This document shows positions 7,988 through 13,103 of a stretch of DNA of 64,000 nucleotides, piece by piece; the stretch's first letter is position 1; each line of letters begins with the position of its first letter. The notes below the pieces were generated by a model. It saw only the letters and a program-made list of their open reading frames with translations, was not told where the DNA came from and made no database searches. The DNA is from Veillonellales bacterium (GTDB lineage Bacteria; Bacillota; Negativicutes; JAAYSF01). A program made the translations under genes and the position numbers. The stretch is taken from the NCBI GenBank assembly GCA_039680175.1, contig JBDKTO010000089.1:1-64000 (forward strand), read 5' to 3'.

Positions 7988-8374
7988 TTACTTATTATTT
8001 TGTTGCTGCCACATTGGGCCAAAACCAGGGCCACCGCGCATCATTCCGGGGCCCTTATTCATCATACCGGGACCGGGAAAACCTTGGTCAATCCGTTCCT
8101 TCATCCAGGCGATACGCTGGTCAGCCTGCTCTTGGGTCAGGTTGCCGAATTCGACTTGTTTTTGAATGACTTGCTTTTTGACTTCAAACATTTGTTTTCT
8201 GAGGTCGGTCATTTGATTAAAGAGGGGAGCCAGCTCCTGCTTTTGCTCATCGGTTAGATTCGCCTGGTTGCAGGCGAAGGAGGGCACGTTAGTCGGAGTT
8301 GCGGCAAACACCATGGAAGCGGCAAAGGCGAGCACCAATAAACCGACAACCGCGACGAGAAGAGATTTTTTCAT
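7988..8374 (-). CDS. secreted DUF2680 protein with Gly-Pro-Met tail
   Basis: The ATG at 8374 follows AAGGAGG and begins a clear signal peptide (MKKSLLVAVVGLLVLAFAAS..VFA). The mature part has the DUF2680 helical region (LTDEQKQELAPLFNQMTDLRKQ... to about residue 100), a Spy/CpxP-like two-helix arrangement, then a tail of GPGMM repeats rich in Met, Gly and Pro. It is probably an envelope stress or metal-responsive protein. The triple 11-bp repeat upstream of it is shared with the adjacent two-component system, so it is the likely main target. Confidence 0.85.
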   Translation of the reverse strand: MKKSLLVAVVGLLVLAFAASMVFAATPTNVPSFACNQANLTDEQKQELAPLFNQMTDLRKQMFEVKKQVIQKQVEFGNLTQEQADQRIAWMKERIDQGFPGPGMMNKGPGMMRGGPGFGPMWQQQNNK

Positions 8375-8399
8375 ATGGTATACCTCCTTATATTGATTA

Positions 8400-8423
8400 A
8401 TCAGTTGGATTTTCCCAACTGAT
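8400..8423 (-). promoter_or_regulatory. hairpin in the 5' leader of the DUF2680 gene
   Basis: A perfect 9-bp stem (ATCAGTTGG / CCAACTGAT, 6-nt loop) sits just upstream of the ribosome-binding site, with flanking AT bases able to extend it. It may protect the mRNA or modulate translation. Confidence 0.45.
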
Positions 8424-8444
8424 TTTAGTTTAATCAATAACTAA

Positions 8445-8477
8445 GGCGAAAGTATGGAGAAAGTGTAACAAAAGTGT
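8445..8477 (-). promoter_or_regulatory. triple 11-bp direct repeat, response-regulator site in front of the DUF2680 gene
   Basis: Read on the minus strand this is ACACTTTTGTT, ACACTTTCTCC, ATACTTTCGCC: three tandem 11-bp units, the spacing typical of OmpR/PhoB-type regulators. The first unit lies in a 17-bp block (8464-8480) identical to one in front of the response-regulator gene. A -10-like TAAACT lies 12-13 bp downstream of the last unit, so the repeats would take the place of a -35. Confidence 0.7.
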
Positions 8478-8517
8478 GAATTCGTTATTTATTCTATCTT
8501 CGGAATAGCTTTTGCCA

Positions 8518-10017
8518 TTATACTATGGGAAAACGAATCGTCACAATGGTACCTTGACCGATCTGGCTGGTGACTGTCACCGCAGCTTGATGCAGGTCTA
8601 TAATTTGCTTGGCGATAGCTAATCCCAGACCGGTGCCGCTGTCGTCCCGGCAATGAGATTTATTCACTTTATAAAAACGCTCCCAGATGTAGGGCAAATC
8701 TTCGGATGGAATCCCGACACCGGTGTCGGCAACTTGCACCGATACGGTGTCACCATCAATAAAGGTCGTGATAGTGACTTTTCCGCCGGATGGTGTGTAT
8801 TTTATGGCATTATCCAAGAGAATTAATAGAAGCTGGATAATCCGATCGCCATTAGCCTGAATAGCAGGAAGTGGCCCTTTGGTATTGGCCAATAGATGAA
8901 TTCCTTTCTGTTCTGCTTGTTGTTTGAGTATATGCACTACGCTGTCGGCTACCGCCTCCAATGGTATCTTTTCTTTGTCGGCGGTGACCTTAGCCGACTG
9001 TAGCCGACTGAGATCCAGCAAATCATTAATCAGTCGTTCCATTCGCACCGCTTCGTCACGCATTAGGCAATAGTATTTTTTTATTTGCGTGGTTTCGTTA
9101 ATCGTTCCGTCCAGCAGTGCCTCGTTATAACCCCGGATAATGGTCAGCGGCGTCCTGAGTTCATGGGATACATTGGCCACGAAATCGCGACGCAGTTTTT
9201 CCATTTTATTCAGTTCGACAATATAGATTGACAAATCCCGGGCAAGTGAATTGAGCGCCAGCCCAAGACGGCCTACTTCGTCGCTGGTTTCTACTTTGAC
9301 TAAAGTATTATAATCACCATGCGCCATGGCACCAGCCGTTTCCTGCATGGATTTAAGCGGGCGCACAATGTTGCAAGTGAGATAATTGACTACCAAGAGC
9401 GCTAACAGGACGGCCAGGAGACCCGCTCCGCCGATATAATAGTAAAGGTGCTGCAGAAAGGCGTCAATGCCAGCTATCGGCGCATGCAGCAACACCGCCC
9501 CTCCCACCTGACCGTTTGCCAAAGTGACGGGGACGGCTACGACTAGCATCTTTTCACCGTAATACGGGTTGTTGAAAGTCTTGGTCCATACCTTGCCGTC
9601 AAATACCGGGTCCAGTTCCTTGATAATAGAGTACATACCGCCCTGGATCTGAGATCCCATACCCGGGTGTCCGGAACTGCCCGGTCCGAATCTGCCGTTC
9701 ATCGGCCAGCCAGGACCCCTACCCATGCCGGACATATTAATCACGTGGCGGGAGGCGTCCAGTACCCATATTCGTGCGCCTAAGTAGCTGTCAGCGTTAG
9801 TCAGAAAAGTATCCAGGCCGGTCAAACTGCCAGTTTCGTCATAAAAATTTTTTAGGTTGTCGGCCAGCTCCGTCCCCTTGGCAATAAGTTCTTGTTGCTT
9901 GGCCGCTAATGTTTGTTCTTTGATGAGGGCCGATACCCCTAGTAGGACGCCACCTAATAGGACGGTAATCACCAGCATAAAGCTGAATAATAGTTTAAGT
10001 TGCAAGGAATGTTTCAT
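8518..10017 (-). CDS. membrane sensor histidine kinase (HAMP/HisKA/HATPase)
   Basis: Starting at ATG 10017 the protein has about 499 aa. Visible parts are TM1 (about 5-27), an extracytoplasmic domain to about 180, TM2 (about 185-205), HAMP, the phosphoacceptor H-box HELRTPLTIIRGY, and N/G1/G2 boxes of the ATPase (DNAIKYTP, DTGVGIP, GTGLGLAIAK). The external domain has a glycine/methionine/proline stretch (GMGRGPGWPMNGRFGPG) that resembles the tail of the DUF2680 protein. The ATG overlaps the regulator stop by 4 nt (ATGA), so the pair is co-translated. Confidence 0.93.
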   Translation of the reverse strand: MKHSLQLKLLFSFMLVITVLLGGVLLGVSALIKEQTLAAKQQELIAKGTELADNLKNFYDETGSLTGLDTFLTNADSYLGARIWVLDASRHVINMSGMGRGPGWPMNGRFGPGSSGHPGMGSQIQGGMYSIIKELDPVFDGKVWTKTFNNPYYGEKMLVVAVPVTLANGQVGGAVLLHAPIAGIDAFLQHLYYYIGGAGLLAVLLALLVVNYLTCNIVRPLKSMQETAGAMAHGDYNTLVKVETSDEVGRLGLALNSLARDLSIYIVELNKMEKLRRDFVANVSHELRTPLTIIRGYNEALLDGTINETTQIKKYYCLMRDEAVRMERLINDLLDLSRLQSAKVTADKEKIPLEAVADSVVHILKQQAEQKGIHLLANTKGPLPAIQANGDRIIQLLLILLDNAIKYTPSGGKVTITTFIDGDTVSVQVADTGVGIPSEDLPYIWERFYKVNKSHCRDDSGTGLGLAIAKQIIDLHQAAVTVTSQIGQGTIVTIRFPIV

Positions 10018-10709
10018 GATCGTACCTCGAAACGGTATCCTACACCCCATACCGTTTGAATATTCCAAGGTGAAGTATCTTTTATTCCCAGCTTTTGCCG
10101 GAGGCGTTTAATATGGCTGTCCACCGTGCGGGTTTCACCGCAGTAGGTGTATCCCCATACTTTTTCCAGCAACATTTCTCGAGAGAAAGTTCGCTTGGGA
10201 TGAGAAGCTAGACACCATAACAGTTCCATTTCCTTCGATGTTAGTGGAATAGTTTGACCAAAGGTAGTAATGGTATGTTCATTAATATTGATTTCCAGGT
10301 TGGTAAAGCGTAAAATATCGGCTTTGATAAATTCGGTGTCAGGTACTCGTCGCAGCACGGCATTAACCCGGGCTACTACCTCACGGGGGTTAAAGGGTTT
10401 AGTTATATAATCATCCGCCCCTAACTCCAGTCCCATAATCCGATCATCATCTTCAGCACGGGCTGTCAGCATGATGATCGGCACACGGGAAAACTTCCTG
10501 ATTTGTCGGCAAACTTCGATACCATCCAGTATCGGCATCATAATATCCAAAATAACCATATTAGGTTTTGTCTGCTCCGCTTTACGAATGGCATCCGCAC
10601 CGTCCGCCGCTTCCACAATAGTAAAACCTTCTTTGACAAAATACATAGCTAATATTTCTCGGATTTGTATATCATCATCGACAATTAATATCGTCTGTTC
10701 CCGTACCAT
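10014..10709 (-). CDS. OmpR-family response regulator
   Basis: A 231-residue regulator from ATG 10709 (RBS AAGGAGG). The receiver domain (1-120) has the acidic pocket VDDD and the phosphoacceptor Asp in PNMVILDIMMP, with the conserved K in TKPFNP. A winged-helix output domain (about 130-230, ending VWGVGYRFEV) follows. It is the first gene of the two-component operon. It probably binds the triple 11-bp repeats at 10759-10791 and 8445-8477, activating itself and the DUF2680 gene; this is inference from shared sites. Confidence 0.93.
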   Translation of the reverse strand: MVREQTILIVDDDIQIREILAMYFVKEGFTIVEAADGADAIRKAEQTKPNMVILDIMMPILDGIEVCRQIRKFSRVPIIMLTARAEDDDRIMGLELGADDYITKPFNPREVVARVNAVLRRVPDTEFIKADILRFTNLEININEHTITTFGQTIPLTSKEMELLWCLASHPKRTFSREMLLEKVWGYTYCGETRTVDSHIKRLRQKLGIKDTSPWNIQTVWGVGYRFEVRS

Positions 10710-10739
10710 AATGCCTCCTTGATAGCGATTATTATCCTC

Positions 10740-10791
10740 ATTATACTGGGAAACAGGCATAAAAAGTATGCATCAAATGTAACAAAAGTGT
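10740..10791 (-). promoter_or_regulatory. promoter with triple 11-bp repeat in front of the two-component operon
   Basis: On the minus strand 10791-10759 reads ACACTTTTGTT, ACATTTGATGC, ATACTTTTTAT. A TATAAT (10745-10740) starts 13 bp after the last unit. The 17-bp block at 10778-10794 is identical to 8464-8480. The repeat occupies the -35 position, as for PhoB/OmpR-type activation. Confidence 0.7.
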
Positions 10792-10831
10792 GAAATCTAT
10801 TTCTTCATACGCTGTGCGGATTGATTTATAT

Positions 10832-10925: not shown

Positions 10926-13103
<2,178 letters not shown>

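Follow-up and report, generated by a model that had tools for sequence, protein, structure and literature searches.

A predicted autoregulated two-component circuit sharing a triple 11-bp operator with a DUF2680 gene in a Negativicutes bacterium, probably serving the cell envelope

Response regulators of the OmpR/PhoB family bind tandem 11-bp repeats head-to-tail, and triple repeats have been documented for ArcA, with PhoB and OmpR also discussed in this regard (PMC3798270). Among the described systems closest to the locus reported here, the secretion-stress system CssRS of Bacillus subtilis is an autoregulated two-component system with an htrA/htrB regulon, whose regulator recognises the CssR box TTTTCACA (PMC6749698), whilst CpxA-CpxR, an envelope-stress system of enterobacteria, acts alongside the small exported proteins CpxP/Spy. 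YclJK of B. subtilis likewise has an OmpR-family regulator, and its known targets are the yngABC and ykcBC glycosylation genes, not DUF2680 (PMC7961091). Here we describe a module at 7988-10794, on the minus strand of a 64,000-nucleotide (nt) stretch of a Veillonellales genome (contig JBDKTO010000089.1; hereafter the window, meaning this whole stretch), in which a response regulator, a sensor kinase and a DUF2680 gene are preceded by two copies of the same triple repeat. We consider this module to be probably an autoregulated OmpR/PhoB-type two-component system for cell-envelope maintenance in a double-membrane Firmicute (Negativicutes), working as a Cpx/Css-like activator circuit. Read along the minus strand, the order is operator, -10, regulator, kinase, operator, -10, DUF2680 gene:

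10763..10794, minus strand: predicted operator 2, three 11-bp direct repeats in front of the regulator-kinase operon (candidate autoregulatory site)
10740..10745, minus strand: regulator-kinase promoter, -10 element TATAAT, separated from the operator by 17 nt
10014..10709, minus strand: OmpR/PhoB-family response regulator, 231 aa (Pfam)
8518..10017, minus strand: sensor histidine kinase, 499 aa, with a transmembrane segment, an extracytoplasmic PAS/Cache domain, a second transmembrane segment, HAMP, HisKA and HATPase_c (Pfam, AlphaFold2 (AF2) model, fold match)
9652..9735, minus strand: kinase sensor domain, disordered loop rich in Met and Gly, approximately residues 95-122 (composition and AF2 predicted local distance difference test, pLDDT)
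8449..8480, minus strand: predicted operator 1, a triple 11-bp direct repeat upstream of DUF2680, with its third repeat in the -35 position
8427..8432, minus strand: DUF2680 promoter, -10 element TAAACT, separated from the operator by 16 nt (same gap in nearly all orthologues)
8399..8424, minus strand: stem-loop in the 5' leader of DUF2680, where the mRNA is predicted to begin (folding)
7988..8374, minus strand: DUF2680 gene, encoding an exported 128-aa protein (PF10925, AF2 model)

The regulator carries a Response_reg domain (3.4e-32, 111.3 bits against a cut-off of 30.2) and a winged-helix Trans_reg_C domain (7.8e-29, 100 bits against 26.2), and shares an operon with the kinase, a HAMP-HisKA-HATPase_c protein by Pfam, the two genes overlapping by 4 bp. 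Operator 1, before DUF2680, reads TTCACACTTTTGTTACACTTTCTCCATACTTT (8480-8449, minus strand) and operator 2, before the regulator, reads TTCACACTTTTGTTACATTTGATGCATACTTT (10794-10763, minus strand); their first 17 bases are identical, and ACAYTTT/ATACTTT elements recur every 11 bp exactly. The initial annotation of this DNA had described a shared triple 11-bp repeat with 17 identical bp, and this is real, with exact 11-bp spacing at both promoters; the coordinates then given (8445-8477 and 10759-10791) were about 4 bp off and are corrected here to 8449-8480 and 10763-10794. Its description of the operator type as new does not stand, as tandem and triple 11-bp repeats are an already documented binding mode of OmpR/PhoB regulators, and a new operator class was ruled out because the 11-bp tandem layout is standard for the family (PMC3798270). 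The sites resemble the PhoB and ArcA boxes in their head-to-tail repeats and 11-bp centre distance, but differ in their half-site, which is TTCACAnTTT.

With up to 3 mismatches allowed, the degenerate (IUPAC) pattern of the initial annotation had 2 matches in the window, compared to an average of 0.00 over 100 dinucleotide-shuffled sequences. Searched across the 4.08-Mb genome, as had been suggested for finding the rest of the regulon, it recovered the same two sites and only one other, a 3-mismatch match, versus 2 for the reversed control. This pattern proved too loose for regulons (in 60 relatives most 2-mismatch matches were noise, with controls equally frequent), and a profile was therefore used for regulon searches. 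A 14-site profile gave both sites E-values of 1.1e-6 and 2.1e-6, the genome's next best being 0.26. As this profile includes both window sites, they were tested independently with a matrix derived from six sites of other genera, by which they ranked first and second with scores of 30.8 and 26.8; the next score elsewhere in the window was 15.1, and the highest in 30 Markov-simulated windows was 20.4. A chance origin of the repeats is ruled out by the shuffles, the simulations and the cross-genus training. Both predicted operators are the sole strong sites in the genome.

The repeats lie where a -35 element should be, as originally proposed: the promoter-proximal third repeat occupies this position, where the hexamer TACTTT matches TTGACA at one of six bases and no sigma-70 -35 is recognisable. 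The operator-to-(-10) spacing had been given as the same at both promoters, and is actually 16 nt before DUF2680 and 17 nt before the regulator. Among orthologous sites the gap is 16-17 nt before the regulator and 16 nt nearly everywhere before DUF2680, there usually to TATACT. At the DUF2680 promoter a second AT-rich hexamer, TAAAAT at a gap of 21, scores higher by consensus alone; we retained the 16-nt assignment because the orthologues support it. Automatic choice of the -10 was unreliable in the L091 and L078 rows, and preferred the 21-nt hexamer in three DUF2680 rows. Judging from established PhoB-type promoters, a recognisable -10 that lacks a -35 and keeps a fixed distance from the operator would mark a promoter as activator-dependent.

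We posit that the kinase senses an envelope condition through its extracytoplasmic PAS/Cache domain and phosphorylates the regulator, which would then occupy the three 11-bp repeats head-to-tail, with the last one taking the place of the missing -35, and activate transcription through contact with RNA polymerase, in the manner of PhoB. Activation would raise expression of its own operon, in positive feedback, and of the neighbouring DUF2680 gene, whose exported product, probably a small periplasmic stress protein of CpxP/Spy type, may protect the envelope and possibly damp the kinase. The same sites could alternatively serve repression, with the regulator sitting over the -35 position and blocking RNA polymerase until a signal arrives, in negative autoregulation. 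The third repeat does overlap this position, and at the B. subtilis prsA promoter a repressive role has been proposed for a CssR box that overlaps the -35 (PMC6749698); however, with one matching base in six there is no recognisable -35 beneath the site, so the repressed promoter would be weak anyway, and the 16-17 nt distance, kept across genera, fits polymerase contact over occlusion. We regard repression as unlikely.

Conservation across relatives further supports the activator circuit. Related loci were retrieved with the kinase as query, and the repeats, on whose persistence in related genomes the initial annotation had staked its claim, are kept there. In promoter alignments of the window, G058, Sporomusa acidovorans, the soil metagenome-assembled genome CTSoil_075 and G009, conservation is concentrated in islands at the operator, -10 and ribosome site, and within the Negativicutes as well as further afield no part of these promoters is better conserved than the repeats. 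DUF2680, regulator and kinase are linked across many families in three orders: regulator-kinase-DUF2680, DUF2680-regulator-kinase, and divergent. In G053 and G033, DUF2680 and the kinase lie on separate contigs and the repeats still precede DUF2680, a pattern better explained by regulation than by common descent of the locus. Held-out profile matches precede DUF2680 in G034, G053 and contig 46 of G009; in G043, and in G009 as well, they precede the regulator. At E ≤0.01, 7 to 8 of the 13 held-out matches in 61 genomes fall at module genes or their remnants; the rest, for which no link is evident, probably represent noise or binding sites for different regulators.

Several relatives carry the operator at further genes. 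In S. acidovorans it precedes the genes of a pump just downstream of DUF2680 (HlyD-type fusion protein, MacB/FtsX permease and ABC ATPase), in G033 the same pump gene, and in CTSoil_075 (L056) the pump again, in a shortened, two-repeat form. It also stands before a beta-lactamase-family exported protein (L063) and, in a relative from the Clostridia (L078), before an HtrA-type protease with a PDZ domain. These pump, beta-lactamase-family and HtrA targets suggest a role in envelope maintenance like that of the Cpx and Css systems. The initial annotation had seen a self-contained circuit of sensor, regulator and exported protein; this holds in the window genome, where sites occur only at the module's two promoters, and fails in relatives with their extra targets. 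Since the S. acidovorans pump has no close homologue in the window genome (best 31% identity), it is not counted as a target there. Between operator and pump genes, two loci (L055:6140-6270 and L056:6160-6250) contain a tiny open reading frame that has a ribosome site and perhaps encodes a leader peptide.

A number of points weigh against our interpretation. The profile search of the window genome found no operator of comparable score before an HtrA gene, a pump or a beta-lactamase-family gene, so the envelope-stress label rests on relatives, and the HtrA target comes from a single distant one with 36% kinase identity. The S. acidovorans pump site is weak on its own (E 0.024 in its genome), as are several of the held-out matches individually, and most of the sites used for training are from a single bacterial class. 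The DUF2680 protein scores 17.4 bits against the LTXXQ family (Spy/CpxP, PF07813), under the cut-off of 24.3, and is consequently not assigned to Spy/CpxP; a fold search with its model (mean pLDDT 68) returned only generic helical matches and none that was specific. The interpretation as a whole is a prediction. Taken together, a small circuit of sensor, regulator and exported protein appears to be the best reading of sites that are shared, conserved and restricted to the module.

Set against the Cpx system, the likeness lies in a kinase with an extracytoplasmic domain, an OmpR-family regulator and an adjacent small exported helical protein sharing the operator, with a protease among the targets, here in a relative. 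The proteins themselves differ: the kinase (139.8 versus 486 bits) and the regulator (166.1 versus 341) fall far under the curated CpxA and CpxR models, and the small protein is a DUF2680 member, under the LTXXQ cut-off, in place of CpxP/Spy. The curated WalK/YycG model is likewise not reached by the kinase (294.4 versus 725) despite its WalK-like sensor fold (Z 15.8), and of the best 25 curated subfamilies listed for kinase and regulator, none attains its own cut-off. CssRS comes close in being autoregulated, as is predicted here, and perhaps also in its box, TTTTCACA, which resembles the half-site (A)TTTCACA here, matching the regulator site ATTTCACA at 7 of 8 positions and the DUF2680 site AATTCACA at 6 of 8; the orthologous Clostridia module, with its operator before an HtrA-type protease, adds to the likeness. 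It differs in that the targets here are DUF2680 and the system itself, not htrA, and in that the sites are triple 11-bp direct repeats replacing the -35. The YclJ box of B. subtilis is reported to read TTCATANTTTNTTCATANTTT, which would be very similar to the half-site here.

The window genome has a single DUF2680 gene, whose product matches the family profile (PF10925) with 59.7 bits against a cut-off of 25. The initial annotation called it a secreted effector, which goes further than the prediction made here, an exported helical hairpin with a signal peptide and a disordered Met/Gly-rich tail, the AF2 model having confident helices at 42-75 and 81-97 and a tail (100-128) with pLDDT <50. No DUF2680 relative was found on plasmids, and a full-text literature search returned DUF2680 only once, mentioned in passing. 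The stem-loop in the leader of the gene (8399-8424) folds at -13.7 kcal/mol, with a z of -3.2; it is present and weaker in S. acidovorans and L056, and no better than shuffles in G009. Partly kept in close relatives, it is possibly a 5' stabiliser of the mRNA.

The kinase sensor domain is predicted to adopt a PAS/Cache fold (mean pLDDT 73.6), with the sensor domains of WalK and CitA as its best fold matches; against the WalK extracellular domain 4ywz, the root-mean-square deviation is 2.1 over 131 residues. Within it, pLDDT falls below 50 at residues 99-125, and this Met/Gly-rich loop, SGMGRGPGWPMNGRFGPGSSGHPGMGS, is much like the DUF2680 tail, GPGMMNKGPGMMRGGPGFGPMW, an unexpected likeness and the most unusual feature of the circuit. 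The Met plus Gly (M+G) content of loop and tail co-varies across 24 kinase/DUF2680 pairs (Spearman 0.68; 0.65 after accounting for GC), and a partial correlation of 0.62 (permutation P 0.016) persists once the pairs are merged into 13 groups, so that the effect is modest after correction. As these groups were chosen by hand and phylogeny was handled only roughly, we treat the co-variation as a lead and not as proof. The Acidaminococcaceae-type orthologues without the loop (M+G 0.03-0.12) include those of four genomes that entirely lack DUF2680. A speculative reading, which we consider doubtful, is that the sensor loop mimics the DUF2680 tail, having evolved by copying of the effector tail into the sensor, such that both would bind the same ligand or each other and the sensor would read DUF2680 buildup and switch the response off.

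The circuit could also be a metal-resistance module in place of a general envelope-stress one, the loop sensing a specific metal or soft ligand, such as copper or silver, and DUF2680 buffering the same ligand. Both segments are rich in Met, Gly and often His, their M+G content co-varies, and an efflux pump is in the regulon of some relatives. However, Met content alone shows no co-variation between loop and tail (rho -0.12), the pump is of FtsX/MacB type and not a metal RND or P-type one, and HtrA and beta-lactamase-family targets do not indicate metals; the kinase (151.4 versus 292.55) and the regulator (164.5 versus 279.2) also fall far under the cut-offs of TIGR01386/TIGR01387, the curated heavy-metal (CusRS/CopRS) families. 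We judge a role in metal resistance improbable, and retain envelope maintenance as our interpretation.

Related repeats occur at other systems in these genomes. A paralogous DUF2680-regulator-kinase module, with a kinase of about 620 aa (L177-L183; for example L183, the second cluster of G058, a genome that has both modules), shows the same 11-bp layout upstream of DUF2680 with another half-site, TTCCnAATTTG, in 3-4 copies. Its regulators have HV instead of HI in the recognition helix (7/7), and the paired changes of helix and half-site look like a specificity switch between the paralogues. Other two-component systems carry 11-bp tandem repeats of the TTGTCAYATTT/TTGTTACAATT type before their own regulator (L152, L222) or before a small exported protein beside the kinase (L240). 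That the operators serve a different regulator of the same family, with the encoded neighbour binding elsewhere, is very unlikely: the whole family shares the use of tandem 11-bp sites, and similar repeats stand at L152, L222 and L240, but this operator travels with the regulator-kinase-DUF2680 module across families and gene orders and occurs nowhere else in its own genome.

The module adjoins gyrB (10926-12842) in the window, and is absent in this form from two genomes of the same family. The window kinase is 84-85% identical to those of G058 and S. acidovorans, whose GyrB is only 82-83% identical; in other relatives, with GyrB at 80-82%, kinase identity is 54-68%. Kinase identity out of step with GyrB, together with the absence from same-family genomes, suggests horizontal transfer of the module as a cassette. 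In G058 (L167, G058:C1:1282000-1294500; L150), the kinase-adjacent regulator is frame-broken and has no operator. A second site, elsewhere in this genome (2723180), precedes two fragments, one of a decayed regulator and one TolC-like, and a further site, at 1287433 downstream of DUF2680, resembles what is left of a pump promoter. Four loci that have an orthologous regulator and kinase and no adjacent DUF2680 (L029, L032, L057, L066) apparently have a thioredoxin-like gene upstream, as read from the sequence there.

This analysis gives DUF2680 a regulatory context, with a predicted operator and a predicted regulon, and proposes an envelope-stress system for the Negativicutes, which are Firmicutes that possess an outer membrane. 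With the operator sequence in hand, any related genome can be searched for the regulon, and the resemblance between sensor loop and DUF2680 tail makes the feedback hypothesis directly testable. Were the loop indeed a mimic of the tail, this would be the first function for DUF2680, a widespread family with essentially no literature.

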